Assembly (NCBI RefSeq): GCF_904846415.1 | Contig: NZ_CAJHAR010000009.1 | Coordinates: forward strand, 51,795-115,794 | Direction: 5' to 3' | DNA length: 64,000 nucleotides | Source: Psychrobacter piscatorii | Lineage (GTDB): Bacteria; Pseudomonadota; Gammaproteobacteria; Pseudomonadales; Moraxellaceae | Shown here: positions 13,093 to 46,010 of the stretch, piece by piece | How the letters are laid out: the number at the start of each line of letters is the position of its first letter | Numbering within the stretch: position 1 is the first letter of the stretch | Program-made: the position numbers and the translations under genes | Notes under the pieces: generated by a model | Database searches by the model: none | Told to the model about the DNA's origin: nothing | The model's input: the letters and a program-made list of their open reading frames with translations, nothing else

Positions 13093-13676
13093 GATAACTC
13101 CAGAAAATAAGGTTATTTAGTAAAGATTATAACGGTGAATTATACCGCCATATTAGGAGGAATTCGAGGGGTTTTACCAAAAAACTTGTTAAAAATACAC
13201 AAATTGTAGGAATTGCCCTATAAATTAAGGCAAGTTTCTAAAGATATTACCTTTAGCAAGATAAAAAATATCAGTAGTACAGATGATGATATGTATTAAT
13301 AACTGCTAACGAGGCTAAAAATAGACATATCTAACGCGAGCTTATTTGAATTATTCGCAAAATTTCTACCTTTATATACGACATGTGATATCAACAGCAG
13401 ATAATTGATCATAAATTACAGGTGATGTATGAACTTAAAACAGCATGAGTCTCTAAGTGTACACCTGCAACATTGATTTCTATTAGGGTGCTAATATGCG
13501 TATAATGTAGCGGATAGATAAGTGATGCATATGGCTATATAAATGTGCAATAGCAGCGCTGCCATCGTTCTGTATTTAAAAGAAATAAGGCAGCCAAAGT
13601 TAGATAAACGCTATTAGATCCATACTAAAAATGAAATGAAGATCATTATTGAGTTTTCAACCGAGGTGTCAACGTT
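13093..13676. promoter_or_regulatory. Divergent ppsA-ppsR control region
   Basis: A long AT-rich interval without a reading frame I would defend. On the ppsA side two overlapping TATAAT-like -10 boxes lie near 13126-13144 on the minus strand; on the ppsR side a TATAAT is at 13501-13506, about 170 bp upstream of the start. None has a convincing -35 box. The length leaves space for regulator binding, but I recognise no known operator. Confidence 0.4.
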
Positions 13677-28568: not shown

Positions 28569-29354
28569 TTAATTATCAGGCGTTAGATCTTGTCCGCGGC
28601 AGATATCATCACTGGCATCTAAAGGCGCATACTGCTTGTAGTAGCTGACGATAGATTGCTCTAAAGCCACGTTAGTCTGTGAATCGTGAGCATTCACATA
28701 AGCTTCGCGTGCTTGCTCAAGCCAGCGGTCTGCCATACGAAAATGTATGCCTGACTCGCGCCACCCTCGCTTACATTGATTGGTCGCCGCCCAAATTAAC
28801 GCCACTTCACTAAATGCCATCTCACGTGGCGCTGACTCTATACCGCCACTGTCTTTTAGCGCACTCAGCGTGGCCCACAGATCAGGTCGCATTAGAGCAG
28901 AGGTAGTAGGGATATCTTGCTGTAGTTTGATGTTTTGTGCTGTATTATTTTTTAGTGACTGTAATATATTCTCAGCCATTTCTACTGCTAATGGGCCCGC
29001 AGCTGATCGGCTATTCATACTGTCTTGATGAATAGCATAAGTAAGCCATGCTTGTGCTTTGTAAGCGAGGTACTGCTGATGAGCGGTTTTGTCTTTTTGC
29101 TGATAGGGCTGTAGTTGCTCTACCATACAGTTGAGTACACGTTGCTGTGTGCTTTGATATTTATAAGAAGGCGCTTGAGCCTGAATATCATCACGACAGT
29201 CTACAGCACTATTCGTATCAACGATTTGAGCCGTGTTGTTAGCGATGCTATCTTGTGCTGAAGCAAGGGATGCGACACTCAAAAGTAACAGTGCTGAGAG
29301 TGCAGTATATACTGGTTGTTTATAAGCAGTGGTTTTAATGGCAGCTTTAAACAT
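28569..29354 (-). CDS. Exported protein of unknown function, last gene of surface cluster
   Basis: A 261-residue protein with a clear signal peptide (LSALLLLSVASLASAQ, cleavage after about residue 33). The mature part is mostly alpha-helical and carries four Cys (AVDCRDD, LNCMVEQ, NQCKRGW, DDICRGQ) that may form two disulfides in the periplasm. Segments such as QQYLAYKAQAWLTYAIHQDSMNSRS and ALEQSIVSYYKQYAPLD look like helical repeats. I do not recognise the family. It follows the 1768-residue barrel protein after 123 bp and ends at a bidirectional terminator. It could be a periplasmic helper of the cluster. Confidence 0.72.
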   Translation of the reverse strand: MFKAAIKTTAYKQPVYTALSALLLLSVASLASAQDSIANNTAQIVDTNSAVDCRDDIQAQAPSYKYQSTQQRVLNCMVEQLQPYQQKDKTAHQQYLAYKAQAWLTYAIHQDSMNSRSAAGPLAVEMAENILQSLKNNTAQNIKLQQDIPTTSALMRPDLWATLSALKDSGGIESAPREMAFSEVALIWAATNQCKRGWRESGIHFRMADRWLEQAREAYVNAHDSQTNVALEQSIVSYYKQYAPLDASDDICRGQDLTPDN

Positions 29355-29417
29355 GATGCAAACCTTATCTGAAGGTAATGAGTGTGGGTATTTACCATTA
29401 TTAGGGCTGACTCTGCG

Positions 29418-29459
29418 ACTCCTGTCTAATCGCTTATTATATTGCCATTAGACAGGAGT
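29418..29459 (-). terminator. Perfect 13-bp hairpin after the barrel protein gene, no U-tract
   Basis: ACTCCTGTCTAAT / ATTAGACAGGAGT with a 16-nt loop, 19 bp downstream of the stop codon. No U-run follows on the minus strand. It may reduce read-through to the 261-residue gene or protect the upstream message. Confidence 0.55.
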
Positions 29460-29477
29460 TAAGACGCTATCATTGTC

Positions 29478-32400
29478 TTACAAGGTAGTCGTATTAACTT
29501 GCGTAGAGTCACTTTTTAAACGCTTGTTCTTACGTGGGTCTTCACGCTTGAATAGATTTTCATCAAACTTGAAACGCAATCTAAAGTAAGCCCCTTCTTG
29601 AGTACTATCGTCATAGGCGATGTCTTCATCTTCAAAGCCCATAAAATTGTAGCCAAGTGACAACCAAAGGTTGGTCATTGGGCTATAGCCCACTTCAGCA
29701 CCTAACATATAAGACAGATCATCTGCTTGCTTATTCCAGTAAGTACCCGCTTGCAAACCAACATCCCAACGTTCGCTAATATCGTAGAGACCGCGACCAT
29801 AAACGGCATGAGCAGTGTTGTCACTGGTAATGTTGTCTGCTTCATATTCTGTATACTTACCCGCATAGCGACCAGACAAGGTTAGGGCACGCGTTGGATG
29901 GTAGTTACCATTCCATGACCAGACAGTGGTGTCTTTTTGATAAGTATCATCACCCGTGTTATTGTCATCCAAACGATACTCAAGCTTTGCAAGCATGTCT
30001 AGTTGGTTGCTGTCGTAATCACGATAAGCGGCACCAAGTTGGAAGCGATTAATCGTGCGATCACCATCATTATAGTCGATGCGCGAATAGGTATCTTTAG
30101 CCAATAAGGTAATCTCATCGGTATAACGATAGGCAATACCTGCGCTACCAAGTAAAGTGTCGCTTGTCTCGCCCCAACGTTTCTCAACACGTCCTGATGC
30201 TTTGTAGTTTTCTTTGGCAAGATACTCAACGCCAAAACCTGCCGCAGTGGCGGTGTTGTTCTCTTCGCCTTCTAATGACTCAACGCGCTCAAGCAACGTA
30301 TTTAGAGTCAGACCTTCTTGTACATACCACTTGTTTTTTAGACCGATAGCGGCTTCCGCTTCACGCGCACTGATCGCGTCACGCATGCGGTATTCGCTAT
30401 AGACTTTACCGTCTTTCATATAATTGGCGTCAAAGCCAACAACGGTACGTTGACGCTCATCAGTATCATCAAGACCGTAGCTACCAGACAAGCTATTGAT
30501 CAAATCATGACGTGCATACAGACGACCCAAGCCACCGATTGGTGTCTCACCACCGATGGACGTCGCGTTACGTGAGCTATTTTCAATATCTTGCTCATAC
30601 TCTGCAAATACCAAGCTATTATTTAGCTTGGGTAGGCGAGAGGTGATACGGGCACGAACCGTGGTGCCTTCGATGTCTTTGTCAGCATCACTAACGCCAT
30701 TCAACGCTGATTGGTTGATAATGTCGTCATTGAACAGCGTGTCATCAGTAACATCTACCACATCTGTGGCTGCTTGGTTATTGCGTGAGGCAGCAGTGGC
30801 ATCTTGTTTGTAGTAACGCACACCGATTTCACCAACGACGTTTTCACTCAAACGTTGCTCGATACTGGCTTGTACGCCTTCACGACTCGCATCAGTAGTA
30901 TGATCTTTGGTGCGTACACCTTCTAATTTTAGCGCTGTTTTCTTGTCGTTGAATGTATGGATGACTTCTACGCCAGACTCCGTACGTCCAGCAGTAAGCG
31001 GTGACGCACCAGTGACAAATCCTTTATCTGCATCATTGTAATAAGCCTTGGCACGCGTGTCTTTCTTATTATCAAAATCAAGCTCGACACGTAAGGCATT
31101 GCCCTCAACATTGTTATCGTCTAATTCTGTGGTGTTGATCTGATTACTTGGCTGAAAGTTAGGGTTCTCAGCTTTGTTCATCGCGTATTCAGCGACGAGC
31201 TTTAGCTTATCGTTGAACTTGATAACGCTATTGACACTAGCCAGCTCTTCTTTGTTCAACGGATCGTCGCTATTAATATAGCTACCACCGATAGCGACTT
31301 TATTAGTCAGTTGCTGTTTGGCAGCGATACCACCAACCAAATAGTCCTCACCACCTTCATCCACTTCTACTGTGACACGAATGTAGATAGGATTGCCTTC
31401 GAGATCTTGACTCGCAATCGGTGATTTCAAAAATAAGCTGCGGCTAATTGGGTCTATCTCATAATCAGCAAAACGAGTTAGCGTCTCACGGCTGATGATA
31501 AGACCGGGATTATTGGCATCACGAGTAATAACTTCGACGATTTCAGAGTTTTCTAGTACTGCGTCAAAGTTCTCCGCTAGTGGGTAGGGACCTGAAATAC
31601 CTAAGCCGCGAGTCTCATTAACGCGCTGGCTAGTACTGGTCTCTGCTAGAAATGCAGTTACGCGAGTATTATTATCTTCAAATTGCGTCTTTAGACCAGT
31701 CAATGTACGGTTGTATTGACCCAGTTTGATGCCTTCATCATTGTCAATTTGTGTTTTTAGGTCGCCATACATAGCAAATGAGCGACCTTTGTCTAGACGC
31801 ACATAGAGCTTACTGGTTGATTGCGCATCAAAGCCTTTGGCAGATGAGTCACCATAGACAGGGTAATATTCGCCAGGCTCGATATCACGGAATAATCGCT
31901 CACCTTTTTTGTCACTGTCATAAGCCAGCGTCAGCAAATAGTCGCCGCGTACTTTGCCTTTCAAGAACATCGCCGCACGACCAGATGCGGTATAGTCATC
32001 ATTACCGGCAAAATCATTCAGCTCTTGTTCAAAGGCACCTTGAGCATCCGTAATACTGCTACCGTCAAAGTCTTTGAGTGAGATGGCACCTTCGACGATA
32101 CCCACAGCAATGAGTGGACGCAGCTTAGCCGTAAACTGTAGTGGAATTACCTGCTTATTGTTTCCAGTGTTGATGACCAGCTCCCCTTTGCCAGGTGCTG
32201 TTGGCGCAGTGATAGGAATGAGCAGCTCGCCGCCACTGACGGTTACTTGTATGCCTGCTTGGTCTTTGTTGGTGTCGGGTAAATTGATACGACCGATATT
32301 GGTATCTAAAGTGATGGGGGTATCGGCAATAAAGGGTAGGTTACCCAAATCTTTTAGGCTAATGACCACTTGATATTCGCTGAAGCCATCGGCTTCGACA

Positions 32401-34784
32401 AAGATGTCTTGGGTACGATAGTCAATGCGTTGCAGACTATCAGGGGCAATCACCTCGATACTTTGTTCGGAAATAATGCTACCTGTGACATCGGTTGCGA
32501 CGCCGCGCAAAGTATTGCGGCCACGGTCGAGGGCCACGGCGTAATAGTCGAAAGCCGTGACTTGCTGTTTTTCTTGCTCAGCGGTCTTGCCAATTTGACT
32601 ATCAGATATGGCCTTGCCATTGACGTAAAGTGTGAAGCGACCCCCAAGCGGTGCCTGAACTTGCACCAACTGCTTATAAGTAGCCAGCTGTTGTCCGGAT
32701 TGTAGATTGAGAAATAAGACCTCGTTATTAGGTACTTTTTTGAGGTATTCTTCAAGCTCGATTGCTTTTGGTGGCGTGATGGTGCTCACACTCATTTTTA
32801 TACGCGGTGTGGTGCTGTTAGTATCTGCTACGATGGCTGAATCGCAATTTAAGCCGCTATCTAGGTCATCGTTAGATTTGCAGCCACTAGCATCAATATT
32901 ATCGTTATAGTCGCGGTTGTAGTCTGGCTCTAGGGTCAGATCACGCTTAATCGCCTGCTCTAAGGCATCGTTTTTGGCATCAACTTGCTTGCTACGTGCA
33001 AGAAGATTCTGGTTTAAAAGTTCTGTGCTGTCGCCCATGCCGCCAACGATAGCAAAATCTGCACGATGTAGCTCACCATATTTTAAATCGACGAAGCGGC
33101 TGCCTGCGTCACCAGCATTACGACTGCTTTGGGTAATCAGATGTGTACCAACAGGTAGTGTTGTACGGTCGACTTTGAGCACATGAGTTTTGGCGCTGAC
33201 ACCGTAGAAGTTATATTTACCTTCAGGATCGGTCACAATGAAGTTACCGTTTTCCATGTAAATGCGTACGCCCGCCACACCTAGCTCGCCATCATCTTTT
33301 TGCTGGATGCCGTCGCGGTTGATGTCATGATATAGTTTACCGATGATGATACCGTCGGTATTCATTACGCCGCGATCGACATCGACATGCCATTGCGCCT
33401 CTCTTGAGCTTAGGATTTGGTCGTTATTCATGCGCGTGGTGGCAACAGCACGGTTAACTCCATCGCCACCCAGCGCTGATGACCCAATCAAAACGCGATA
33501 GGTAATCTCTCTGCTCGTACCTTGAGGTAAGTCTCCCAAGTGCAGCACTTGGTATTTGCCTTCTGCCTGAAACTCTGTGGTTTGCATGCTATTGATAAGC
33601 AAATCGTTATCCGCATAGCGTACACTGCCTTTCACATATTCAAAGCCGCGCGGTAGGGCATCCTTTAGCTGTACGTCATAAGCGGTAGCTGCGCCATTAT
33701 TGGTGATATTAATAGTGTAATTGACATAGTCACCAAGCGCTGCCGATTTGAGATCGCCTTCTTTTTTGACTTGTAGGCTTGGGTTGTTATCGACAATACT
33801 AATCTCGCTGCTGTAACCACTGATATTGGTGGTAAAGTCGCTTTTGCTCGGCGTCTCATCTAAACCGACAGACGGATCGATACACGCAACCAATTTAGCT
33901 TGTAATGTATCGCCAGTCATCGTTTGGATAATGCTGTCTTTGATAGCATTGGCATTTTTTTCGGTCGGTGCTGACAGACGGTATTTGCCTGTATTATTGC
34001 CCGTCTCAATACCTTTTAATGAATAAGTGTCGCCCGTAGTAGGTGAGGTGATGGTCACCCAAATTTGATCAGGCTTATCCGTCTGCACGTTACATTGCGT
34101 GTAACCAGCTTCAAGATATACATTATCATTGATTTGTGTGCTGCTTTTGTCAGATAAAAAATCTGGGGTGGTAAAGTGTACGCCGGGGGCAACAATGACG
34201 AAGCTGTCTTTTACTGAGGCGGTTACTGAGCTGTCTTCTAATACTGTTGCGCCAACTTTGATGTCGGTGCTGCTACCATCACTGGCATTGCTATTGGTGA
34301 CGGCTTGAATGATTAAATCAAGACGCTCACTTTGTCCCAATTTGATTTGGTCAAGACCTGTGATAAGGCGGTCACTTGCATCAATAATGCCGTTTTTATT
34401 AAGATCTTGATAGACTTCAAAATTCGATAGGCTGCTTGGGTAGTTAAAATTTAGGTTAATAGTAACCGCATCATAGCCTGTGTTGGTGATGGTGTTTTTC
34501 CAAGTAACTTTGCTACCTGCCATGACAGTTTGTTTGCTGCCAGCGTCAAAAGATATACTGTATTGGTCAGCATTGACAGTTTGTAGTTGGACGGTATTTG
34601 ATGCCACGCTTAAAGTGGTTTGTGTGTCGTTAATAGTATAGCGCGCATCTGCAGTGTTATTGATAGTATCAATTATCACAGGTGCTGCAAATGCAGAATG
34701 TGATTGCATAAGCAACATAGCTACTGTCAAAGCCGATAGCTTAGCTACTAAATGAGTAGACGGGACAATGCAGTTTGATATCAT
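29478..34784 (-). CDS. Giant DUF11/SdrD_B protein with C-terminal outer-membrane beta-barrel-like region
   Basis: A 1768-residue exported protein. A signal peptide ends in HSAFA (residue 33). The first 330 residues contain Ig-like strands and an EF-hand-like loop (DLNKNGIIDASD). A DUF11 domain follows at about 335-460 (LQVKKEGDLKSAALGDYVNYTINITNNG), then an SdrD_B-like domain at about 475-560 (GKLYHDINRDGIQQKDDGELGVAGVRIYME). After further Ig-like segments, from about residue 900 to the end, there are alternating polar/aromatic strands with turns, typical of a large outer-membrane barrel, ending in AYFRLRFKFDENLF and a basic tail. I infer an outer-membrane anchor or translocator carrying surface domains. 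The role is unproven. Confidence 0.75.
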   Translation of the reverse strand: MISNCIVPSTHLVAKLSALTVAMLLMQSHSAFAAPVIIDTINNTADARYTINDTQTTLSVASNTVQLQTVNADQYSISFDAGSKQTVMAGSKVTWKNTITNTGYDAVTINLNFNYPSSLSNFEVYQDLNKNGIIDASDRLITGLDQIKLGQSERLDLIIQAVTNSNASDGSSTDIKVGATVLEDSSVTASVKDSFVIVAPGVHFTTPDFLSDKSSTQINDNVYLEAGYTQCNVQTDKPDQIWVTITSPTTGDTYSLKGIETGNNTGKYRLSAPTEKNANAIKDSIIQTMTGDTLQAKLVACIDPSVGLDETPSKSDFTTNISGYSSEISIVDNNPSLQVKKEGDLKSAALGDYVNYTINITNNGAATAYDVQLKDALPRGFEYVKGSVRYADNDLLINSMQTTEFQAEGKYQVLHLGDLPQGTSREITYRVLIGSSALGGDGVNRAVATTRMNNDQILSSREAQWHVDVDRGVMNTDGIIIGKLYHDINRDGIQQKDDGELGVAGVRIYMENGNFIVTDPEGKYNFYGVSAKTHVLKVDRTTLPVGTHLITQSSRNAGDAGSRFVDLKYGELHRADFAIVGGMGDSTELLNQNLLARSKQVDAKNDALEQAIKRDLTLEPDYNRDYNDNIDASGCKSNDDLDSGLNCDSAIVADTNSTTPRIKMSVSTITPPKAIELEEYLKKVPNNEVLFLNLQSGQQLATYKQLVQVQAPLGGRFTLYVNGKAISDSQIGKTAEQEKQQVTAFDYYAVALDRGRNTLRGVATDVTGSIISEQSIEVIAPDSLQRIDYRTQDIFVEADGFSEYQVVISLKDLGNLPFIADTPITLDTNIGRINLPDTNKDQAGIQVTVSGGELLIPITAPTAPGKGELVINTGNNKQVIPLQFTAKLRPLIAVGIVEGAISLKDFDGSSITDAQGAFEQELNDFAGNDDYTASGRAAMFLKGKVRGDYLLTLAYDSDKKGERLFRDIEPGEYYPVYGDSSAKGFDAQSTSKLYVRLDKGRSFAMYGDLKTQIDNDEGIKLGQYNRTLTGLKTQFEDNNTRVTAFLAETSTSQRVNETRGLGISGPYPLAENFDAVLENSEIVEVITRDANNPGLIISRETLTRFADYEIDPISRSLFLKSPIASQDLEGNPIYIRVTVEVDEGGEDYLVGGIAAKQQLTNKVAIGGSYINSDDPLNKEELASVNSVIKFNDKLKLVAEYAMNKAENPNFQPSNQINTTELDDNNVEGNALRVELDFDNKKDTRAKAYYNDADKGFVTGASPLTAGRTESGVEVIHTFNDKKTALKLEGVRTKDHTTDASREGVQASIEQRLSENVVGEIGVRYYKQDATAASRNNQAATDVVDVTDDTLFNDDIINQSALNGVSDADKDIEGTTVRARITSRLPKLNNSLVFAEYEQDIENSSRNATSIGGETPIGGLGRLYARHDLINSLSGSYGLDDTDERQRTVVGFDANYMKDGKVYSEYRMRDAISAREAEAAIGLKNKWYVQEGLTLNTLLERVESLEGEENNTATAAGFGVEYLAKENYKASGRVEKRWGETSDTLLGSAGIAYRYTDEITLLAKDTYSRIDYNDGDRTINRFQLGAAYRDYDSNQLDMLAKLEYRLDDNNTGDDTYQKDTTVWSWNGNYHPTRALTLSGRYAGKYTEYEADNITSDNTAHAVYGRGLYDISERWDVGLQAGTYWNKQADDLSYMLGAEVGYSPMTNLWLSLGYNFMGFEDEDIAYDDSTQEGAYFRLRFKFDENLFKREDPRKNKRLKSDSTQVNTTTL

Positions 34785-34856
34785 TATGCGTGCCTATACA
34801 ATCAAATCAGAGAATACAGCGACGATCATCATTATTTTCATCGCTATGAGGTGGGT

Positions 34857-34888
34857 AGACTGTCCATAATCTATGCTATGGACAGTCT
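34857..34888 (-). terminator. Perfect 12-bp hairpin between two surface-protein genes, no U-tract
   Basis: AGACTGTCCATA / TATGGACAGTCT with an 8-nt loop, 21 bp after the 699-residue gene stop and 72 bp before the barrel gene start. Without a U-run it is more likely an attenuating or stabilising element inside an operon than a full stop. Confidence 0.5.
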
Positions 34889-34909
34889 GATATTACAAAT
34901 TATCAAGTC

Positions 34910-37009
34910 TTATGGCGTAGTACCATCTGGGTTGATTTTCACAGCAAATACCATTGCCGCGTATGTTTGTGGCGCTAGTGTGGTTACGGTACCATTTACT
35001 GCCGTACCATCATTGGCGGCACTATATTTATTAGTTGCAGGTATCGCGGTAGCATTTGCCGCATCGTCTAGCCTGATAGCGTATGCAGGAGTCGTGCTGC
35101 TGCTAAGCACCTGCGCTTTATTGTTAAAGCGGTCGGTGGTATCTTTAATCACGACATTGTCAAAGCTAAAGCGTGCATCAGTAGTTGCGAACTGGTTGAA
35201 CGCTGTGATTTTGTACACAATGCAATCACCAGGTTTTGCCGCTACTGGTGACTGGGTAAAGGTCAATGAAGCTGTTGCTGAGCACGTGGTGTTCAATGCT
35301 TGTTCTTTGATCAGACCTAAGCCTTTGACTGTGGTGGTGTTTTGTACTGAGCGATCACCGACGGCTGGCGCGTCTTGACCACCGACCACTAGGTTAACGG
35401 TTGTAGTTTCTGTTGAGTCAAGCAGTGCATTAGAGGATGAAACGTTATACTGGATTGTTACGCTTGAATTTGGTGCCATACCTGTCCATGCTGGTGCGCC
35501 ATCGACAGGCGTAGCGGTAGATAAGTCGTATTCACCATTACCATTTTTAACAAGAGTGTACGTTGCATTTGGCGTTGCTGGATTGTTATCCGCATCATAG
35601 ACAATACGTACACTTCCATCAACTTGTGTAATCTTGTCGTTCGCACCCTCAGTGATGGTGAATTTTATTTCACCTGCCTGATCACCTTCAGTTTCTTTAC
35701 CCGTGTTTTTAATCACAGCGGTTTGTGTGATTTGTGTACCTGTGGTGGTGGTGGTTGGGATTTGTTTACTACTTGGTGATTCGAGGTTTATGGCACGTTG
35801 GTTTGCTACCAAGGGTGCAGTTGAATCGCCACCGATCGCATTGTTCGCAGTACCGTTAATGACTTCACTGTCATCTGTTGATGGATAGAAATTAGCAGTA
35901 TTTTGATTGGTATCTGTTGGATCAGTGGTATCATAAATGACCTGCCCGCCGCCCAAGTCAAGCGTTGCGACCGCATGATTGACTGTGCTCTTTAAATTGG
36001 CAAGGTTTTCTTCTGAGTCTTTTTGCACATCAAAGGTAATGATAGCTTCTTGACCTGGTGCTAGGTTAAGCAAAGTCACACGAATACTGTCTTGTTCAAA
36101 ACCTGTGCCTGCACCATTAGTACCTGCAACGATGGTAGCGTTGTTGCTGGCGCTTAGATTTGGCTGCTCGGCAAGACGTAAGCCTGCTGGCAGGTTGTCA
36201 ATCACCACGATGTTATTTGCAGCTATAGCATAAGCGGCACGCTCGTCGTTACGAACTTTGATGGTGTACGTCACTTTCGAGGTTGGGTCGTTTAGGTTTA
36301 GCGTGCTGCTGACCGTGCTGGTAATCTTAAACACAGGTACTTTAGTTGTACTGTTGTTGATGTTGGTCAATGTCGCTTTGGTAGTGTCTGCACTACTGAA
36401 GAAAGTACTGACCGCAGATAGCGTTAGATTCTGGGTGTCGCCGCCCACGTTACCCGAGGTTTTTGCCGCAACAGAGATGTCTGCATACTCGTTCGGGCGT
36501 AGTGTAATGGCGCGGCTTTGGAACTCAGTACCCGTAACCGTTGTCGTGCTCTTCAGCGTGCCATCAGCATTGTAGATGGTGTACGTGACGTTGCTCGTTG
36601 CCAAGTCATAAGCACCGCTGCCTTGTGGGCTATTTGGGATATTGCCACCTTGAGCTAGGCTTAGAGTATAAGTGTCTTGAACGTTACCTGAGTTGGTCAA
36701 GGTGTGGTTAAAGGTCACAATACCTTTAGGAGTTACGGTAAGCCCCTTGTTATAGTCATCAGTCAAGTCGCCGTCATCATTCTTAGCAACTAAGCTGAAA
36801 GCTGCGCTTTGGGTGATGTTTACGGTGACTTTGTTTGACTGTACAGGGTTCTGTGCGACACCAGCGATGCTGTAGGTCGCTGTTGCAATGTTGTCAATGG
36901 TCGGCGTCGAGTCAGCGGTAGACTTTGCCGCGTTTGCAGTACCAGCCAAGCCGAACGCGCTGATAACGCTGACGGCTAGTACGGATTGTTTGAATAAACG
37001 TTTACTCAT
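34910..37009 (-). CDS. DUF11-type secreted surface protein, 699 residues
   Basis: A secreted, Thr/Asn/Ala-rich protein with signal peptide ending at GLAGTANA (residue 28). At least three DUF11/Ig-like repeats can be seen (VTFNHTLTNSGNVQDTY, VTYTIKVRNDERAAYAIAANNIVVIDNLPAGL, then TQTAVIKNTGKETEGDQAGEI and CIVYKITAFNQF). The only two cysteines, Cys576 and Cys596, lie in the last repeat in the pattern C-x19-C with KPGDCIVYKI, the same module that ends the 1044-residue protein. The N-terminus (TIDNIATATYSI) resembles that of the barrel protein. Ribosome binding site GGAG. It lies 43 bp after the 154-residue gene, so they are likely co-transcribed. Possible fibre or adhesin subunit. Confidence 0.78.
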   Translation of the reverse strand: MSKRLFKQSVLAVSVISAFGLAGTANAAKSTADSTPTIDNIATATYSIAGVAQNPVQSNKVTVNITQSAAFSLVAKNDDGDLTDDYNKGLTVTPKGIVTFNHTLTNSGNVQDTYTLSLAQGGNIPNSPQGSGAYDLATSNVTYTIYNADGTLKSTTTVTGTEFQSRAITLRPNEYADISVAAKTSGNVGGDTQNLTLSAVSTFFSSADTTKATLTNINNSTTKVPVFKITSTVSSTLNLNDPTSKVTYTIKVRNDERAAYAIAANNIVVIDNLPAGLRLAEQPNLSASNNATIVAGTNGAGTGFEQDSIRVTLLNLAPGQEAIITFDVQKDSEENLANLKSTVNHAVATLDLGGGQVIYDTTDPTDTNQNTANFYPSTDDSEVINGTANNAIGGDSTAPLVANQRAINLESPSSKQIPTTTTTGTQITQTAVIKNTGKETEGDQAGEIKFTITEGANDKITQVDGSVRIVYDADNNPATPNATYTLVKNGNGEYDLSTATPVDGAPAWTGMAPNSSVTIQYNVSSSNALLDSTETTTVNLVVGGQDAPAVGDRSVQNTTTVKGLGLIKEQALNTTCSATASLTFTQSPVAAKPGDCIVYKITAFNQFATTDARFSFDNVVIKDTTDRFNNKAQVLSSSTTPAYAIRLDDAANATAIPATNKYSAANDGTAVNGTVTTLAPQTYAAMVFAVKINPDGTTP

Positions 37010-37052
37010 GGGTTGGTTCTCCTAGGTGTCTGACACAAAATAACGGTTGGGT

Positions 37053-37517
37053 TTAGTTAACGACAGTATTTAGAGCAACGTCTGCTGACTTATTGGCAGG
37101 CAGCCATTTGATGTTCCAGCGAAGTGCTTTGTATTCTGACAATGGAACTTTCACCAGTTTGCCATTTACCTTGCGCATTAGCGGCATGTCGGCATAGTTT
37201 TTACCGTCTGTGCTTGCTTGTGCGCTGGCAGGAGACACTTCACCAGTAAAAGTCATATTCGCAGGAATAGGTAAGGTGACCGCAAGATCACTGATGTTTT
37301 GATTGGTAGTATTGGTATAGTTTGCTTTGTATTGAATCACTGTACCTGCTGGTGCATTACGTACCGAAGTGTAGCTGACTTTGCCATCTGCGTTTTTAGT
37401 AACCTTGTTGGCGGTCAGCTCCATCTGCAATGCGTCAGCAGCATAAGCACTATTGAGCAATACAGTAGAGGCGACAATCGCAATCAGAGCGTGGCGTAAA
37501 CGATAAAACGGCTTCAT
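37053..37517 (-). CDS. Small single-domain DUF11-like exported protein
   Basis: A 154-residue exported protein with a signal peptide (RHALIAIVASTVLLNSAYA, cleavage near residue 26). The mature part is one DUF11-like domain: AGTVIQYKANYTNTTNQNISDLAVTLPIPANMTFTGEVSP, a central DGKNYADMP hairpin, and a final strand SADVALNTVVN. I selected the ATG at 37517, which has an AAGGAA ribosome binding site five bases upstream, over one 34 codons earlier that would put a charged stretch before the signal peptide. Its size suggests a minor or cap subunit beside the larger DUF11 proteins; this is inference. Confidence 0.75.
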   Translation of the reverse strand: MKPFYRLRHALIAIVASTVLLNSAYAADALQMELTANKVTKNADGKVSYTSVRNAPAGTVIQYKANYTNTTNQNISDLAVTLPIPANMTFTGEVSPASAQASTDGKNYADMPLMRKVNGKLVKVPLSEYKALRWNIKWLPANKSADVALNTVVN

Positions 37518-37702
37518 ACGAGATTCCTTGTTTAGTTCATTATTGTCAGACACAAGCCAGATAACTTCCTGTAAATATGGACAATCAATAAATAAACGTT
37601 GATTGATAGTAGTGAGCATTTATTGTAGCTGGCATTATTACAAAACAATTACATACAGTCACTAAAAAAATGACAAAAGGTAGTTTCAGGTGTGTAAATG
37701 GA

Positions 37703-37731
37703 AACACCTCAATAGTGGCTATTGAGGTGTT
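37703..37731. terminator. Perfect 13-bp hairpin between surface-protein genes, no U-tract
   Basis: AACACCTCAATAG / CTATTGAGGTGTT with a 3-nt loop, 45 bp beyond the stop of the 1044-residue gene. The stem is strong but is not followed by a U-run; it may still end the first transcript, as 186 bp remain before the next start codon. Confidence 0.6.
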
Positions 37732-37775
37732 CTTATCAAAAAAATAAAATACTAAAGTTAATTCATTAAGTTGAC

Positions 37776-40700
37776 TTATGGGGTGCTGGTCGTGGTGCCA
37801 TACTTGCTATTAAAATAAAGCGAAGCTTTGGTCGGCACTGTTGTGGCTGTAGGCACTTTGACCAAATCAAACTTGTCTGACACGATAGTACCGTTGTTGC
37901 CCATGACAGCTGAAGTATTGCTGCTCTGATAAACATTGCTAGGATTACCTGTTGGTTTTGGCAACTGAAAGGTCGATATAACGGGTGCTGTTTGCAATAT
38001 ATCTTTAATCTGTACATCGACGATATCAATATGCCCACGGTTATAAGCATCAATCTTATAAGCGATACAGTTACCAGGTTTGACATTGTTGGCAGCATTC
38101 ATACTAAAGCCAGTATTAGGATCATTGGTGTCACCTATACTTGCATAATTGAGCGATGCGTTGCATTGATGGACGTACTGAGATTTTTTTAATACCAGCG
38201 TCGCGTTTTGTGATTTTAGCTCACCAAAATCAAGATTACGCGTAATAACCCCAGACGTATTTTTTTCTGTTTTGTAGTCGTAAACATTTGACGCTAGCGT
38301 TACTTCTCTACTGTCTGCAGTAGTGTCTATCGGATATTCCCAAGTATTGGGCTCTGTCTCAATAATACAGACTTTGGTCTTATTCAATAGCACACTTGGT
38401 AATACCGTAAAGCTGTATTGGCCTAGTGTACCTGCAGCGTTTGAGACCGTTTGCGGGTTGGCAGATGTCGTAGAGAGATTGTTACCGCTACAATCAGTCA
38501 GTCTGACTTGTAAGCCACTGACATAAATGCCAGATTCGTTGCTATCAAATACGCCGTTAGCATAATTGCCATTGCCCGTAAAAGTCGCTGAAGTGTCATA
38601 CTGATTACTGCTACTAGCAGTAATCCCACCGTTGTCGTTAAAGACAAAGCCTGAGAAGTTATATGTAGCAGGACTGTTAGTAATCGTACATGTGATTTCA
38701 TCGCCATAGTTGACATTGGCGAGCGTAAATGAGCGAGTTTTGTTTGTCGCGTCATAGCTCATAGCGACAGTGGGCATAATCGTTGTACTATTAGTTGTAG
38801 CGTTGGTACAAGCATAAGTCGCGTTGTAGTTTGCTACATCACCAAGAGTTGTACCATTAAGTACATTTTCAGTAATAGTATATATTGTAGATTCGGCTAA
38901 GCTTAACAGATCACTAGTACCATTAGTAATAGTGTTAGCAGTACCGGTAGTGGTAAAAGTATTAGCATCTAAAGCGTTTCCAGTAACTTTTATCTCAAAT
39001 TGATCACGTTTGGTATCAGTATCATTGACTCGGCTACCGTTTAGTGATTTTTTTACGATAAGTTTTGGCGGTGCTAGGCAGAAATAAAAATCAGAATAGC
39101 CGACAACATAAGCACCAGCAGCAGTAGAAGTAGATCCTACAGATGGGTTGCCATGTGTAATAGCAAAAGGTGTTTGCGCAGACTTATAGCCCCAGTCTAT
39201 ATTGAAATTACAAGGACTAGCCGTATTGCAGTTATCCCAAGCAGTACCTGAAATGGTTTGATTACCATTAGAGAGCTGGAATGGCTTGCTCTCTATTCTC
39301 GAAAAAACACCGCCAGGAGAAGCTAGTGATATCGACTCTATATATTGTCCGGCTTCGTTAGCGTCTAGATCTTGAACAACGAAACCATATTTGGATACAG
39401 GCTTGTTGATAGTGGCTGTCAGCCTATGATCAATATTTGTACGAAAGCTATTGTGAAACATATTTAATGCATTAGAGGTTGTATTCGTTACATCAACAGA
39501 AGAGGGGTAGCCTGAAGCTAAATTAACAATATTTGTGAAAGAAAGTTTGAACTCTGTTTTATTAAAAGTATATGTTTTTTCTGGATCACCCGCTGTCCAA
39601 CCAATTGGTAGTGTCTCTTTAGGAGTATAGCTTGGAGGGTTACTACCAATATAGAACATCTTATGCCCACTCGGACAGCTAGCCGGTGCTACAGGAGAGC
39701 CACCGCTAAATATAGAGGTAACGGTATTAGTATCACTTGCACTCTTTAGTTCTAGATTGCTTGCTTGTATAGTAGCAGTGTTGGTAACTGTTGACCCTTC
39801 GGAGGCTGTTATTCTAGTTGGCACTTTTATACTATAAGTCTTTCCTGTCGCAAGACTTGAGATAGTAAAACCGCTTGTACTTTCCAACTGCGTTTTGGTT
39901 GGTGCTGTGGTGCAAGTGTTGGTATTATCTGTCGTATCACAGGTAATGTTGTCTTGTTTGGTAAGACCAGTAACAATCGGATCTTTTAAGATAATATTGG
40001 ATAATGGCGTATTACCATTATTAGTCACTTTGATAATATAATTTGTAGTGCTACTTGTACCTATACTGGATATACCGTCATCTTTGGTAATTTCATATGA
40101 TGCGGGCTGATAGCAATAGCTGTCTAAACGAAAGTCAATTATTCGACTGGTGATATTGGTACTTACATCATTATTTGTATTGGTATAGATTATCTTTACT
40201 GACTTTACAGGCTCACTAAAAACTACCGATCCTTGACAGGTGGATTCTAGAGTGCTTCCACAGTTAAAGTCTGTACCTAGTCGTAAGCCTTCCCCATTGG
40301 TATTGATGACACTAGAGTTAGCTATCGTCTGAAATACACCACTTATAGGAGCATTACTTTGCGTGGTCCCGACAAACTTGACATTATCATCCCAATAACT
40401 GCTTGTATTAGTTAATTTATCAATATCAAAAACGCTGAGGGCGACTTTGTTCAAGAAAAGAGGTTCGCTGGTTGAACTGTTTTGAAATTCTAGTGAGATT
40501 TCATTGCGAACTGAGGTATTAGCCGCGCTTCCAGTAAACCTAATGGCAGTATAGCTACCGCTAGTTAGCGTAGCAACGCTACTGCTCCTACTGTTATTAA
40601 AATCAGCAATACTCATCTTGATTCTTAGAGGGACTGAGACAGATGATCCGTTTGTGCTCTCACTAGATACAGTTTGATAGTTACTACTGCTAAAACTCGT

Positions 40701-40910
40701 GACAAGATTGTTATAACTAGAATTAGTTAAAATACCTTTAGTTGAGCCAGCAGGGCAAGTGGTAGCAGAGCCATTATTTAGAGTAAGCGCATGAGATGAG
40801 ATGCTCATCAATGACAATATTACAAAGCCTATCAAATTCAGTATTCGAGATTGATACTTACTGGAGGAAAAAGCATTCATTATATTTAAGGGTTTTTTAG
40901 CTTTATGCAT
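37776..40910 (-). CDS. Large DUF11-type secreted surface protein, about 1044 residues
   Basis: The first gene of the cluster. A signal peptide ends at SISSHA. Two related modules of about 200 residues are each framed by Cys (C52-C266 and C412-C611): both start with C-P-x-G, contain an acidic loop (VFDIDKL, VQDLDANE) and end in a Cys before a DUF11 strand (ASYEITKDD, PKLIVKKSL). DUF11-like and SdrD_B-like segments follow (FSGFVFNDNGGI, SGLQVRLTDCSGNNL), then a C-terminal module with C916 and C948 in KPGNCIAYKIDAYN. The frame opens at a TTG seven codons earlier; I chose the ATG with AGGA eight bases upstream. It looks more AT-rich than its neighbours. Confidence 0.76.
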   Translation of the reverse strand: MHKAKKPLNIMNAFSSSKYQSRILNLIGFVILSLMSISSHALTLNNGSATTCPAGSTKGILTNSSYNNLVTSFSSSNYQTVSSESTNGSSVSVPLRIKMSIADFNNSRSSSVATLTSGSYTAIRFTGSAANTSVRNEISLEFQNSSTSEPLFLNKVALSVFDIDKLTNTSSYWDDNVKFVGTTQSNAPISGVFQTIANSSVINTNGEGLRLGTDFNCGSTLESTCQGSVVFSEPVKSVKIIYTNTNNDVSTNITSRIIDFRLDSYCYQPASYEITKDDGISSIGTSSTTNYIIKVTNNGNTPLSNIILKDPIVTGLTKQDNITCDTTDNTNTCTTAPTKTQLESTSGFTISSLATGKTYSIKVPTRITASEGSTVTNTATIQASNLELKSASDTNTVTSIFSGGSPVAPASCPSGHKMFYIGSNPPSYTPKETLPIGWTAGDPEKTYTFNKTEFKLSFTNIVNLASGYPSSVDVTNTTSNALNMFHNSFRTNIDHRLTATINKPVSKYGFVVQDLDANEAGQYIESISLASPGGVFSRIESKPFQLSNGNQTISGTAWDNCNTASPCNFNIDWGYKSAQTPFAITHGNPSVGSTSTAAGAYVVGYSDFYFCLAPPKLIVKKSLNGSRVNDTDTKRDQFEIKVTGNALDANTFTTTGTANTITNGTSDLLSLAESTIYTITENVLNGTTLGDVANYNATYACTNATTNSTTIMPTVAMSYDATNKTRSFTLANVNYGDEITCTITNSPATYNFSGFVFNDNGGITASSSNQYDTSATFTGNGNYANGVFDSNESGIYVSGLQVRLTDCSGNNLSTTSANPQTVSNAAGTLGQYSFTVLPSVLLNKTKVCIIETEPNTWEYPIDTTADSREVTLASNVYDYKTEKNTSGVITRNLDFGELKSQNATLVLKKSQYVHQCNASLNYASIGDTNDPNTGFSMNAANNVKPGNCIAYKIDAYNRGHIDIVDVQIKDILQTAPVISTFQLPKPTGNPSNVYQSSNTSAVMGNNGTIVSDKFDLVKVPTATTVPTKASLYFNSKYGTTTSTP

Positions 40911-41476
40911 GTCACTATTCCTAAGAATCAAGGTTGCTCAGTCAATATGGAGCTTAACTATACTTATACAAATATACCAGTATGAGATACTAATAAGCAA
41001 TTTATGTTAAATCCAGTGCAAAGTTCCTAATGGTCGATTTAGCATGACAGGAAGTATATTTTGGTTAAGGAATTACACGTAGCTGTCTTTTGAGTAAAGA
41101 GACACACTGTTTTTATTATCATTTTCCAAAAAACTAATCATTATTTATTTAAAAAATACTTGTTATTTATCCATTTCTCTACAGCCATAAACAATTGCCT
41201 CGCAAACGCTTATAATAGAGTGTCAAAATCATCCATGACTGAATATACAGGGACAACAGTATGATCTGTTTTGTAGTTTCGTCCATTTGACGCATATGTC
41301 AATTCTCAGTGGCACTATTTTGTATAATCTAGCTGTATCTCACCGTATGAAACAAGGGAATGCTTGGACATAGCAAGGAAGTCATAAGTAAACCGATATC
41401 TCACTTCACACCAGTATTTAACAAAGCCCTACCGTCTAGATAGGTAGGTATGACTGATATAAAAGGATCGACAACA
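40911..41476. promoter_or_regulatory. Divergent region between surface cluster and aceE
   Basis: About 565 bp without a defensible gene. It should hold the promoter of the whole surface cluster and that of aceE. On the aceE side there is a TATAAT at 41323-41328 and, 20 bp upstream, a perfect inverted repeat TTGAC-N6-GTCAA (41287-41302). No riboswitch fold that I recognise. Confidence 0.45.
41287..41302. promoter_or_regulatory. Inverted repeat TTGAC-N6-GTCAA upstream of aceE
   Basis: A perfect 5+5 inverted repeat with a 6-bp spacer, placed just upstream of a TATAAT box. The spacing is two bases too long for an FNR/ANR box and the sequence is not the PdhR box, so the binding protein, if any, is unknown. 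Confidence 0.35.
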
Positions 41477-44290
41477 ATGAATTATTACAAGGATGCTGAT
41501 AGCACCGAGACCAAAGAGTGGTTACAAGCCTTTGAGTCTGTTCTCAAACATGCAGATAAGGATCGCGCTCAGTTTCTTCTAAAAGCCTTGTACAATATGG
41601 CTGTTCAAGAAGGGCTACCATTTAATAGATTGGATACCGCGTATATTAATAGTATCGCTGTTGAAGATGAGCCAATGTATCCAGGCGATCTTGGTATGGA
41701 GCGTAAGATTCGTGCGTTGATTCGTTATAACGCTTTGGCAATGGTCATGCGTGCCAACAAAAACGATGATGATTTGGGTGGTCACTTGGCGTCATTTGCC
41801 TCTAGTGCCACGCTTTATGAAACAGGATTCAACCATTTTTTCCGTGCGGCAAGCGATCACTTCGGTGGTGACATGATTTATTATCAAGGTCACTCAGCGC
41901 CAGGTATCTATGCACGTTCTTATTTAGAAGGTCGCCTAACTGAAGATCAGCTCGATAACTTCCGCCGTGAAGTGGGTGGTAAAGGCTTATCAAGCTATCC
42001 ACATCCATATTTGATGCCTGATTATTGGCAGTTCCCAACGGTATCAATGGGCCTAGGTCCGATCATGTCGATCTATCATGCTCACGTGCATCGTTACATG
42101 GAAAACCGTAAACTGTTAGAAAAAGAAGGCCGTAAAATTTGGGCATTCTTAGGTGATGGTGAGACGGATGAGCCAGAAAGCTTGGGTGCAATCTCTCTTG
42201 CTGGTCGTGAGAAGCTGGACAATCTAATTTGGGTTGTTAACTGTAATTTACAGCGTCTTGATGGCCCAGTACGTGGTAATGGTAAAATTATTCAAGAGCT
42301 AGAGTCGGTATTCCGCGGTGCTGGCTGGCGTGTGATTAAAGTCATTTGGGGTGGTAAATGGGATAGCCTGCTTGCCAATGATGATACTGGTGTTCTCAAA
42401 CATCGTATGGAAGAAGTGGTCGATGGTGAGTACCAGCTATATGAAGCGCGTACGCCTGAATTTACTCGCAAAGAATTCTTTGGTAAATATCCTGAATTAA
42501 AAGAAATGGCAGATGCACTGACTGATGAAGATATTGCACGCCTAAACCGTGGTGGTCATGATCCACAAAAAGTGTATGCTGCGTTTAGCGAAGCGATGAA
42601 AACCAAAGGTCAGCCAACGGTTGTACTGGTCAAAACTGTCAAAGGCTATGGTTTGTCCAGCACAACACAAGCGGTCAATAAATCGCATCAAATCAAGAAA
42701 CTTGATCAAGAGGCGCTCGTTTATTTCCGTGATCGCTTTGATTTGCCATTTACCGATGAGCAACTAGAGACCTTACCATTTTACCGTCCTGAAGAAGGCT
42801 CGGCGGAAATGAAGTATCTAAAAGGTCGCCGTGAAGCATTGGGTGGTCATCTACCAAATCGCCGCAGTGGTCATATTCCGCTGAATATCCCTGAGCTATC
42901 GATATTTGATCGCGTCTTAAAAGGCAGTAATGGCAAAGAACAATCAACGACGATGGTATTCGTGCGTTTGTTATCAGCCATGCTGAAAAACAAAGATATC
43001 CAAGACCGTGTTGTGCCAATCGTACCAGACGAAGCGCGTACCTTTGGTTTAGAAGGCATGTTCCGTCAATTGGGTATTTACTCTGCAGTTGGACAGAAAT
43101 ACACGCCAGAAGATAGCGAAGCATTGATGGGCTACAAAGAAGCGATCGATGGTCATATGCTAGAAGAAGGCATCAACGAAGCGGGTGCGATGAGTACTTG
43201 GATTGCCTTAGCAACCAGTTACTCTGTAAATGCGTTGCCAATGATTCCGATGTACATCTATTATTCAATGTTTGGTTTCCAGCGCATAGGTGATTTGGCT
43301 TGGGCGGCAGGTGACTGTCAGGCACAAGGCTTCTTACTAGGGGCTACTGCGGGTCGTACGACTTTGAATGGTGAAGGCTTGCAGCATCAAGACGGTCATT
43401 CACAGATTTTATTTAACGTGGTACCAAACTGCGTGTCTTATGATCCTTGCTATGGTTATGAGCTGGCTGTTGTCGTACATGATGGCCTACGCCGCATGTA
43501 TGGAGAAGGCGAGCGCGTTTATTATTACCTAACGCTAATGAACGAAAACTACGACCAGCCTGCCATGCCAGAAGGAAGCGAGGAAGGTATCAAGCGCGGT
43601 ATGTATTTACTTGAAGATAATGACTCAACTCAGGTACAGCTATTGGGTTCAGGCGTGATCTTACGTGAAGTACAAAAAGCGGCTCAGATCCTAAAAGATG
43701 AGTTCAATATCACATCAAACGTTTGGAGTGTCACCAGCTTCAACGAGTTGACTCGTGATGGTATGGTTTGTGACGACTACAACCGTCTACATCCAATGGA
43801 TGAAGAAAAAGTGCCATGGGTTACTGAGCAATTAGCACCGCACGAAGGTATCGTAGTTGCAGCAACCGACTACATGCGTAACTACTCAGAACAGATCCGT
43901 GCTTGGTTACCAGACAACCGTCCTTATACCACGCTTGGTACAGATGGCTATGGCCGCTCTGATACTCGTGAAAACTTACGCAGCTTCTTCAACGTTGATG
44001 CGGCTCACATCGTTGTTGCTACGCTTAAGCGCTTAGCGGATGAGGGCGAAGTGGAAATGCGTTTGGTTAAAGATGCAATTTCAAGCTTAGGCATCGATGC
44101 GGATCAGCCACCTGCATGGCACCAACAGTCTTATTATGATCATTCTCCAGATGCACCAGCACCAGGCAAAGTAAACCCAAGTCCTGTGCCTGAGTTCGTT
44201 GCTGACGACGATGAAGAAATCAGCGATGAAGGCCGCGCCGAAGATCAAGCAGATGCAACCTTGCTCAATGACGGTGATGTCAAAGAATAA
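41477..44290 (+). CDS. aceE: Pyruvate dehydrogenase E1 component
   Basis: Homodimeric-type E1 of the pyruvate dehydrogenase complex, about 937 residues. It uses thiamine diphosphate to decarboxylate pyruvate and acetylate the lipoyl groups of E2. Visible motifs include YYQGHSAPGIYARSYLEGRL, the ThDP-binding GDGETDEPES...NLIWVVNCNLQRLDGPVRGN segment, and the transketolase central region GINEAGAMSTWIALATSYSVN. The C-terminus has an acidic extension beyond the catalytic core. I chose the ATG with AAAGGA nine bases upstream; an in-frame ATG nine codons earlier has a poorer site. It is followed by aceF after 25 bp. Confidence 0.97.
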   Translation: MNYYKDADSTETKEWLQAFESVLKHADKDRAQFLLKALYNMAVQEGLPFNRLDTAYINSIAVEDEPMYPGDLGMERKIRALIRYNALAMVMRANKNDDDLGGHLASFASSATLYETGFNHFFRAASDHFGGDMIYYQGHSAPGIYARSYLEGRLTEDQLDNFRREVGGKGLSSYPHPYLMPDYWQFPTVSMGLGPIMSIYHAHVHRYMENRKLLEKEGRKIWAFLGDGETDEPESLGAISLAGREKLDNLIWVVNCNLQRLDGPVRGNGKIIQELESVFRGAGWRVIKVIWGGKWDSLLANDDTGVLKHRMEEVVDGEYQLYEARTPEFTRKEFFGKYPELKEMADALTDEDIARLNRGGHDPQKVYAAFSEAMKTKGQPTVVLVKTVKGYGLSSTTQAVNKSHQIKKLDQEALVYFRDRFDLPFTDEQLETLPFYRPEEGSAEMKYLKGRREALGGHLPNRRSGHIPLNIPELSIFDRVLKGSNGKEQSTTMVFVRLLSAMLKNKDIQDRVVPIVPDEARTFGLEGMFRQLGIYSAVGQKYTPEDSEALMGYKEAIDGHMLEEGINEAGAMSTWIALATSYSVNALPMIPMYIYYSMFGFQRIGDLAWAAGDCQAQGFLLGATAGRTTLNGEGLQHQDGHSQILFNVVPNCVSYDPCYGYELAVVVHDGLRRMYGEGERVYYYLTLMNENYDQPAMPEGSEEGIKRGMYLLEDNDSTQVQLLGSGVILREVQKAAQILKDEFNITSNVWSVTSFNELTRDGMVCDDYNRLHPMDEEKVPWVTEQLAPHEGIVVAATDYMRNYSEQIRAWLPDNRPYTTLGTDGYGRSDTRENLRSFFNVDAAHIVVATLKRLADEGEVEMRLVKDAISSLGIDADQPPAWHQQSYYDHSPDAPAPGKVNPSPVPEFVADDDEEISDEGRAEDQADATLLNDGDVKE

Positions 44291-44315
44291 TAATCATAAG
44301 ACTAGGAGATAAAAC

Positions 44316-46010
44316 ATGGACATTAAAGCCCCCGATCTGGGTGTCGATAGTGCTGAAGTCAGCGAAATTATGGTAGCAGTGGGTGATGTCATCGCAAAAG
44401 ACGACAACATCGTTCTGCTAGAGTCTGACAAAGCTTCAGTTGAAGTACCAAGCTCTGCTGCTGGTAAAGTCACCAAAATCAATGTTGCCATTGGCGATCA
44501 AGTCAGCGAAGGCATGGTATTGATCGAAGTAGAGAGTGCTGACGCAAGCGATGACAATGACGACACTGCTGAAGAAGCTCCTGAGGCAGAACAAGCAGAC
44601 GATAATAATGAAGACGCATCTGTTGAAGATGATGCAGAGGAAGAGTCGACTGATGATGCTGGCGAAGGCGCATCGACTACCCATGCACTGCCAGACATAG
44701 GCGTTGATGAAGCGCAAGTGGCTGAGATCATGGTGAGTGTAGGCGACACGGTCAGTGCCGATGAGTCTATCCTACTGATTGAGTCAGACAAAGCCTCAGT
44801 CGAAGTGCCTGCACCAGAAGCAGGCGTGGTCGAAAAAATCTTGGTTAATGCTGGTGACACTGTTGCTAACGGTCAAGACTTTATCGTTATTAAAGCGGCA
44901 GGTACTCCTAAGGCAAAACCGAAAGCGGATACTGCTAAAACTGAAGATAAAGCGGACAAGCCTGCACCGAAAGCTGAAAGCAAGTCACAGCCAGCCCCAA
45001 CAGGCGAGCCAAAGCAAGCGTCTGCACCGACCTCAACTGCTGCGCCTGCGGGCAAAAAATTGAGTGAAGCGGAAGTCAATGAAAAGTTGGTTGATGTATA
45101 TGCAGGTCCTGCTGTACGTAAACTGGCTCGTCAGCTTGGCGTGGATATCACACAGGTAAATGGTTCAGCGCTAAACGATCGCATTCTAAAAGAAGATCTG
45201 TTTGCGCATGTCAAAAATCGTTTGACCACCCAACAAGCAGCGCCAGCTGCTCAGGGCGCTGTTAGCTCAGGTCTGCCAAAGCTACCTGATATGAGCAACG
45301 TTGAAATCTGGGGCGAAACAGAAACCCAAGATTTAAGCCGCTTGCAAAAAGTGTCAATCCCGCAGCTGAACTACAATACGTATCTACCGCAAGTGACACA
45401 GTTTGATTTGTCTGATATCACCGAAACTGAAAAACTACGCGGTGAGCTAAAGGGTGACATGAAGGCGCAAGGTATTGGCCTGACTATTTTGGCCTTTATT
45501 GTTAAAGCAACTGCTTACGCTTTGACCCAGCACCCACGCTTTAACAGTCATTTGAGTGATGACAATACGCAAGTGATTTTGCGTAAGAGTGTTAACATGG
45601 GTATTGCTGTTGCGACTGATGACGGCCTAGTGGTTCCTGTGATTAAAAATGCACAGGACAAAGGCATCAAGCAGATCGCCATCGAAATTGGTGAGTTGGC
45701 AGGCAAAGCACGCGATAAAAAGCTCACTACTAAAGACATGCAAGGTGCAAGCTTTACCATATCAAGCCAAGGTATCTTGGGCGGTACAGCATTCACGCCA
45801 CTGGTCAACTGGCCACAAGTGGGTATCTTAGGCGCATCAGAAGCGACTATGCAGCCTGTTTGGAATGCGGCTAAGCAGACTTTTGAGCCGCGCTTGATGC
45901 TGCCATTGTCATTGTCTTATGACCATCGCGTCATCAATGGTGCGGATGCAGCGGTATTTACTCGTTATGTCGCTACATTGCTTGCTGATCCACGCCGTAT
46001 TTTGCTATAG
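44316..46010 (+). CDS. aceF: Dihydrolipoamide acetyltransferase E2 of pyruvate dehydrogenase
   Basis: E2 core of pyruvate dehydrogenase, 564 residues. Two lipoyl domains are visible, each with the lipoylated lysine in ESDKASVEVP (about Lys40 and Lys160), joined by acidic and Pro/Ala-rich flexible linkers. The peripheral subunit-binding domain (VYAGPAVRKLARQLGVDITQV) follows, then the catalytic trimer domain with the active-site SYDHRVINGADAAVF and ARRILL-type end. Escherichia coli E2 has three lipoyl domains, so this is a two-lipoyl form. Ribosome binding site AGGAG. No lpd (E3) follows; the operon ends in a terminator. Confidence 0.97.
   Translation: MDIKAPDLGVDSAEVSEIMVAVGDVIAKDDNIVLLESDKASVEVPSSAAGKVTKINVAIGDQVSEGMVLIEVESADASDDNDDTAEEAPEAEQADDNNEDASVEDDAEEESTDDAGEGASTTHALPDIGVDEAQVAEIMVSVGDTVSADESILLIESDKASVEVPAPEAGVVEKILVNAGDTVANGQDFIVIKAAGTPKAKPKADTAKTEDKADKPAPKAESKSQPAPTGEPKQASAPTSTAAPAGKKLSEAEVNEKLVDVYAGPAVRKLARQLGVDITQVNGSALNDRILKEDLFAHVKNRLTTQQAAPAAQGAVSSGLPKLPDMSNVEIWGETETQDLSRLQKVSIPQLNYNTYLPQVTQFDLSDITETEKLRGELKGDMKAQGIGLTILAFIVKATAYALTQHPRFNSHLSDDNTQVILRKSVNMGIAVATDDGLVVPVIKNAQDKGIKQIAIEIGELAGKARDKKLTTKDMQGASFTISSQGILGGTAFTPLVNWPQVGILGASEATMQPVWNAAKQTFEPRLMLPLSLSYDHRVINGADAAVFTRYVATLLADPRRILL

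Follow-up and report, generated by a model that had tools for sequence, protein, structure and literature searches.

A candidate fibre cluster in Psychrobacter piscatorii with a DUF11 domain divided between neighbouring gene products

Chaperone-usher pili combine an N-terminal donor strand with an incomplete acceptor domain, follow a tip-shaft-base logic and have a barrel in the outer membrane, and the SprA translocon of the type IX secretion system (T9SS) is a very large barrel whose cargos have a C-terminal domain (CTD) in common. The DUF11 or CLIPPER domains are found in the stalks of surface proteins and carry a Lys-Asp-Asn triad for which there is a crystal structure (PMC12617251). The archaeal thread of Sulfolobus is held together, with no sortase, by head-to-tail donor strands and, as proposed, by an isopeptide bond between subunits, from the N-terminal Asp to an Asn two subunits along, with no mention of DUF11 in the portion of the article at hand (PMC9715654). 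Here we describe a cluster of five genes (A to E) in a stretch of 64,000 nucleotides of Psychrobacter piscatorii DNA (assembly GCF_904846415.1, contig NZ_CAJHAR010000009.1, positions 51,795-115,794; hereafter, the window), in which the head of a DUF11 domain and its last strand appear on different gene products. This division of a domain between neighbouring gene products is the point that is new with respect to a previous annotation of the same DNA (the original prediction), and it gives an assembly mechanism and separate roles for the proteins.

Putative acceptor and donor ends of the DUF11 proteins

The five open reading frames (ORFs) are arranged in the order A-B-C-D-E, all of them and their features on the minus strand of the window. 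As judged from their sequences, A (37776..40910, 1044 aa from Met8 of a 1051-aa ORF) and C (34910..37009, 699 aa) terminate in a DUF11 domain in which the Lys and the Asp are retained and which stops before the last strand with the Asn, and mature C and D (29478..34784, 1768 aa) begin, just after a signal-like stretch, with this missing strand (NxAxAxY). The truncated DUF11 at the C-terminus of A, its putative acceptor, occupies 37779..38219 (ORF residues 905-1051; Lys916, Asp977), and that of C 34913..35350 (residues 554-699; Lys568, Asp623, Cys576, Cys596). The putative donor strand regions were located at 36812..36904 in C (residues 36-66; Asn40-x-Ala-x-Ala-x-Tyr) and at 34587..34679 in D (residues 36-66; Asn43). 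With these ends, A is assigned as acceptor only, C as both donor and acceptor and D as donor only.

The complete internal DUF11 domain of D (33357..33785, residues 334-476; Lys340 or 341, Asp375, Asn444) has the Lys-Asp-Asn triad within one domain, and its model comprises 135 positions, with the isopeptide Asn near position 106. Most of the internal copies in the partner proteins align through positions 110-129. In a first listing none of the terminal copies went past position 98, and six of them aligned to 95-98 with the end of the protein within two residues. The copies reaching the protein end (L069_02, L039_04, L040_08, L047_03, L069_00 and L077_00, and in a further listing L048_13 and L049_01) stop at model position 93-98, before the Asn column; other terminal copies align over the first part only, due to a diverged loop. 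Neither A nor C has a Lys-Asp-Asn triad complete within its terminal domain, the strand with the Asn being on the N-termini of C and D.

The C-termini of all 12 A-type proteins were matched by a model of the C-type C-terminus, with independent E-values (iE) of 4.7e-8 or better when the filters were off (fewer A-type proteins were listed with the default filters), and these matches lie 2-32 residues from the protein end, A of the window being the one at 32. The donor model, made from C-type N-termini, gave no match at the start of any of these 12 proteins. It matches the start of D in the window (iE 1.6e-8) and of D relatives, and also, in other proteins, the tails of internal DUF11 domains right after the Lys...Asp head (2.7e-12 in L039_04, and others), in such a way that the N-terminus is identified by homology as a DUF11 tail. 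The profile alignment sets Asn40 of C on the isopeptide Asn, and its score exceeded all 100 column shuffles when every donor was included, 99 of them with the C-type donors and 98 with the D-type ones.

The residues of the putative bond were then counted, having in mind that the C-type proteins also trained the models, so that A, D and the phylum-wide cases are the independent ones. The donor Asn is found in 62 of 65 N-termini, the others having Ser (two) or Gly (one). Among 49 terminal acceptor matches, 12 are unaligned at the Lys position (nine B proteins and three divergent others), and the remaining 37 have Lys in 36 cases and a cysteine equivalent to Cys576 in all of them. At the Asp position the 49 acceptors have Asp (38), Asn (9), Glu (1) or Leu (1), the eleven exceptions being the nine B proteins, L039_04 and L084_02. 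An alignment of 40 C-type rows has 25 invariant columns, among them those of Asn40, Lys568 and Asp623. In the phylum-wide C-type proteins both Lys and Asp were read by eye in 24 of 24 sequences, and the donor has Asn in 21 of the 22 with the start in view and Ser in the other one. In the internal DUF11 of D, Lys and Asn were lost together in loci L043 and L053, also as read by eye.

Composition and conservation of the cluster

The original prediction had described five co-directional genes for exported proteins, and their ORFs, positions and sizes were confirmed, with a signal-peptide-like stretch at the start of each of A-E (read by eye, not by a predictor). Its family assignments, compared here with Pfam and NCBIfam models, stood in part. 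DUF11 was detected in A (2.5e-6; internal complete domain found by family search at 39717..40091, ORF residues 281-405) and D (3.1e-12), and at edge level in C, where TIGR01451 appears only at the cut-off and PF01345 reaches 25.4 bits in a genome search against a cut-off of 24.6. SdrD_B in D (33141..33335, residues 484-548; E 2.1e-6) is just under the cut-off, and every family match of B is below it (TIGR01451, E 0.013), so that the DUF11 fold is supported by profile in A, D and, in the genome search, C, and not in B. A prealbumin-like SpaA_3 domain of A (38670..39062, ORF residues 624-754; E 2.1e-19) had not been named, and E shows no Pfam or NCBIfam family above the cut-off. Among named proteins, those closest to D are from Psychrobacter.

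The proposal of a barrel-like C-terminal half in D was supported by AlphaFold2, with 39 strands of at least 8 residues in this half (hand count of the listed elements). The predicted giant beta-barrel occupies 29562..32111 (residues 892-1741), preceded by a pair of predicted Ig-like domains (32124..32780, residues 669-887), and D is likely an outer-membrane anchor with a predicted barrel of around 39 strands. A fold search with D found SprA chains among many barrels, with no specific match, and also met usher structures. C was predicted as a row of beta-sandwiches. The fibre-and-anchor idea of the original prediction was partly supported, in that the DUF11 proteins are likely fibre or adhesin subunits and D their likely anchor, and it missed the split domain. 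Its view that the genes correspond to no named system agrees with the literature searched, in which none of this kind was found.

The absence of known export components was also upheld among the Pfam and NCBIfam matches of the five proteins, which include no usher, chaperone, sortase, autotransporter or secretion model. The usher family (PF00577) has no match in D, no PapD-type chaperone appears up to E 0.1, and neither a sortase nor a cell-wall sorting signal is among the families matched by A-E, to which the search for sortases was confined. These matches also lack the T9SS SprA and CTD models, and those of D lack any autotransporter or DUF560 barrel model (type V and type XI secretion systems). 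Usher matches of the genome itself are found on another contig, C45, where the two (G000:C45:106-792 and 13240-14229; L087 and L088) correspond to the initial and final parts of the family and lie around 12 kb apart, one of them with an internal stop; they may be a single usher gene that was interrupted, or two separate ones.

Gene B (37053..37517) encodes 154 aa from its second Met, or 188 aa if an upstream ATG is used, with a single acceptor-like domain that lacks the catalytic Asp. This Asp is absent in 32 of 32 B proteins, which have no Cys beyond residue 28. With less weight than the roles of A, C and D, B may be an inactive acceptor, likely a holder or a cap, or else a terminator. Gene E (28569..29354) encodes a helical, exported-type protein of 261 aa. 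An OmpA domain ends 6 of 10 E homologues tested and is missing in the other four and in E of the window, and so E might tie the base to peptidoglycan at least where this domain is present, a function that would have been lost or replaced in the window. A second B-like gene (L072_06, G147:C1), of 175 aa and on the opposite strand, was seen downstream of E in one locus. Conservation in D is highest in an insert within its predicted barrel (31362..31631, residues 1052-1141), which has the signature GTSGxYxL...SExVxIxVRDR...DYxIDYxxGxxxF and no Pfam match, and which may be a plug.

D was matched in 20 of 145 genomes sampled at the level of the order, in 144 of 299 genomes of the Moraxellaceae, in 90 of 105 of the same genus (hand count of the family listing, own genome included) and in 56 of 398 Pseudomonadota genomes (E 1e-20 or better). 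The synteny that the original prediction had suggested looking for was found in 20 Moraxellaceae stretches, hand-chosen among D-positive genomes: D is preceded in all 20 by a C-type gene and in 19 by B (the 20th is cut by the contig end), and an E relative follows D in 18, with one stretch lacking it and another one ending before. Among loci from outside the family, D is matched at 2e-25 or better in 14 (L039-L051 and L053, including one that is contig-cut); a B-type gene is present in 11, not in L045, L046 or the contig-cut L050. Another 18 stretches came from other parts of the phylum. A C-type protein lies upstream of D in 14 of them (one as a fragment at a contig end), accompanied by a B-type gene in 10 of these 14, with two of the other four contig-cut, and one stretch is not long enough to be assessed. 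The remaining three (L147-L149) have a giant DUF11 protein and a barrel, without split domain.

Within the genome of the window, strong acceptor domains are found only in A and C. The acceptor profile was detected in 15 of 25 same-genus genomes searched, all 15 with D, and the ten acceptor-negative genomes comprise six without D and four with it (G392, G288, G290 and G314). The original prediction had named regular occurrence of the barrel without DUF11 partners as a sign against it, and such cases are a minority. Five reduced Psychrobacter loci were read, three of them chosen for the missing acceptor (G392, G288, G314) and two for a late start of the D alignment (G220, G316). A and C are missing in the five, B is kept in three (G288, G220 and G316), and the N-terminus of D is cut in all except G314. 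In G288 the NxAxAxY motif remains and the domain after it is gone, and a damaged motif remains in G220 and G316.

Several variants of the cluster were also observed. A sister layout, in which a giant DUF11/SdrD_B protein is directly followed by a D-related barrel with no split, is present in L036, L037, L147, L148 and L149, and in Eleftheria the barrel of this layout is annotated as an OmpA family protein. In L084 (G256:C1:84001-104000) the genes are tandemly duplicated, B-C-D and then A-B-C-D, and the first C copy has Glu for the acceptor Asp and Ser for the donor Asn. A relative of the cluster adjoins arsenic-resistance genes in plasmid p4 of Acinetobacter haemolyticus (L034, CP085288.1); the annotation shows several short ORFs between its B and D, and the C-type gene may be broken. 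A-type acceptor proteins are also encoded away from D (L107_05 in G386:C5 and L108_07 in G324:C1), perhaps as alternative (spare) tips. The cluster of the window is flanked by an ORF of 946 aa (in the region 41450-46010), pyruvate dehydrogenase E1-like by a name taken from sequence only, and ORFs of 937-979 aa are also near the reduced loci (L102-L106); their presence beside both intact and reduced loci suggests a fixed chromosomal site.

Proposed assembly and its alternatives

Our reading, which we consider fairly probable, is that the split DUF11 (CLIPPER) proteins assemble by donor-strand complementation into an isopeptide-locked adhesive fibre, A-(C)n-D, on the barrel of D. The donor of C would complete the acceptor domain of either A or another C subunit, and the donor of D that of the last C, in a likely tip-shaft-base layout of A, C and D that follows the gene order A-(B)-C-D. 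The Asp would drive the formation of a Lys-Asn isopeptide bond between subunits, as in known CLIPPER domains, in such a way that no sortase would be needed, and the base of the fibre would be the predicted outer-membrane barrel of D. C may be polymerised or be present once per fibre. With less weight, B might hold or cap donor strands without bonding, E might link the base to peptidoglycan, and the subunits might exit the cell through or along D. A more general proposal, to which we give somewhat less than an even chance, is that of an unnamed, phylum-wide class of Gram-negative fibres that would work as a serial natural SpyTag/SpyCatcher, with strand insertion welding tip, shaft and barrel covalently and the dead B protein as a safety cap against periplasmic welding.

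Several observations weigh against an isopeptide-locked fibre. The pattern of donor strand and incomplete acceptor was read from the sequences, some internal DUF11 alignments stop at 96-100 or earlier though the protein continues, and the terminal copy L040_05 aligns to position 113. With a donor of 34 residues, hhalign gives a probability of just 1-2% (E 0.02-0.04), and because of this low value it is the shuffles and the internal-tail matches that carry the point of donor homology. The closure of the D barrel and its insertion in the membrane are predictions (pTM 0.60), and G314 retains D with its donor though A, B and C are lost. The triad is also disrupted in certain proteins, with Ile and Asn in its positions in the acceptor of L039_04, Glu plus a donor Ser in L084_02 and Gly in the donor of L040_06, and only 10 of 14 phylum-wide D donors have Asn (not those of L133, L135, L136 and L137).

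These triad losses are what would be expected if the fibre were built by donor strands without covalent bonds, the Lys and Asp serving for folding and the two acceptor cysteines giving stability, as the conservation of Cys576 in the 37 aligned A/C-type acceptors also allows. However, the three residues are invariant in the 40 C-type rows, and Lys and Asp were kept in the 24 phylum-wide proteins read by eye, and we regard a non-covalent fibre as quite unlikely. We also think it improbable, to a slightly lesser degree, that the C-terminal domain is a sorting signal and D a translocon that exports or tethers A and C, as SprA of T9SS does with CTD cargo, with no fibre formed. That the 12 A-type proteins and the C-type ones all finish in a common domain fits such a system, as does a predicted barrel of SprA-like size with SprA chains among the many barrels of its fold search, but a sorting signal accounts neither for the missing strand, with its Asn, at the N-termini of C and D nor for the retention of Lys and Asp, and none of the five proteins was matched by a T9SS model.

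Since both halves of the domain are in the single C chain, its N-terminal strand could instead fold into its own C-terminal domain, so that C would be a closed monomer with a circularly permuted DUF11, and these would be separate adhesins near a porin-like D. In contrast, A has only an acceptor and D only a donor, so that neither is complete without a partner, the model of C shows a row of beta-sandwiches and the gene order is kept, which makes this explanation very improbable.

If the covalent fibre A-(C)n-D is real, Gram-negative bacteria have sortase-free, covalently welded fibres made from a split domain alone, and the co-occurrence of DUF11 proteins and an unannotated giant barrel across Pseudomonadota would be explained. 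It would also provide a function for the B, C, D and E genes, mostly labelled as hypothetical or DUF11, and a source of new natural pairs for protein ligation. Two small purified pieces would then be enough for a direct test of isopeptide bonding between separate proteins in the fibres of Gram-negative bacteria.

Comparison with known systems

The DUF11/CLIPPER proteins (PF01345) share with the cluster the domain family and the Lys-Asp-Asn triad, whereas the triad is there in one domain of one chain and here the head and the tail strand are on different gene products (PMC12617251). The nearest mechanism seen is that of the archaeal thread (Saci_0406-like subunit), which resembles the proposed fibre in its head-to-tail donor strands, the proposal of an intermolecular isopeptide bond and the lack of sortase, and differs in the bond itself, in being archaeal and in having no outer membrane (PMC9715654).

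SpyTag/SpyCatcher also derives from an isopeptide domain, divided into one strand and the rest of the fold, which rejoin covalently, although it was engineered from one protein, whereas in the cluster the cut appears natural, serial and conserved. T9SS, with the very large barrel of SprA and the common C-terminal domain of its cargos, is similar to the predicted barrel of D and the shared end of A and C; in the cluster this domain is a truncated DUF11, with no T9SS match. With chaperone-usher pili the cluster would share the putative donor strand and incomplete acceptor, the proposed tip-shaft-base order and the predicted outer-membrane barrel, and it differs from them in that the acceptor is a DUF11 domain with isopeptide residues and the barrel of D is predicted to have around 39 strands. 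By analogy with these systems, the cluster is likely a variant of the donor-strand fibres that would use the CLIPPER chemistry.

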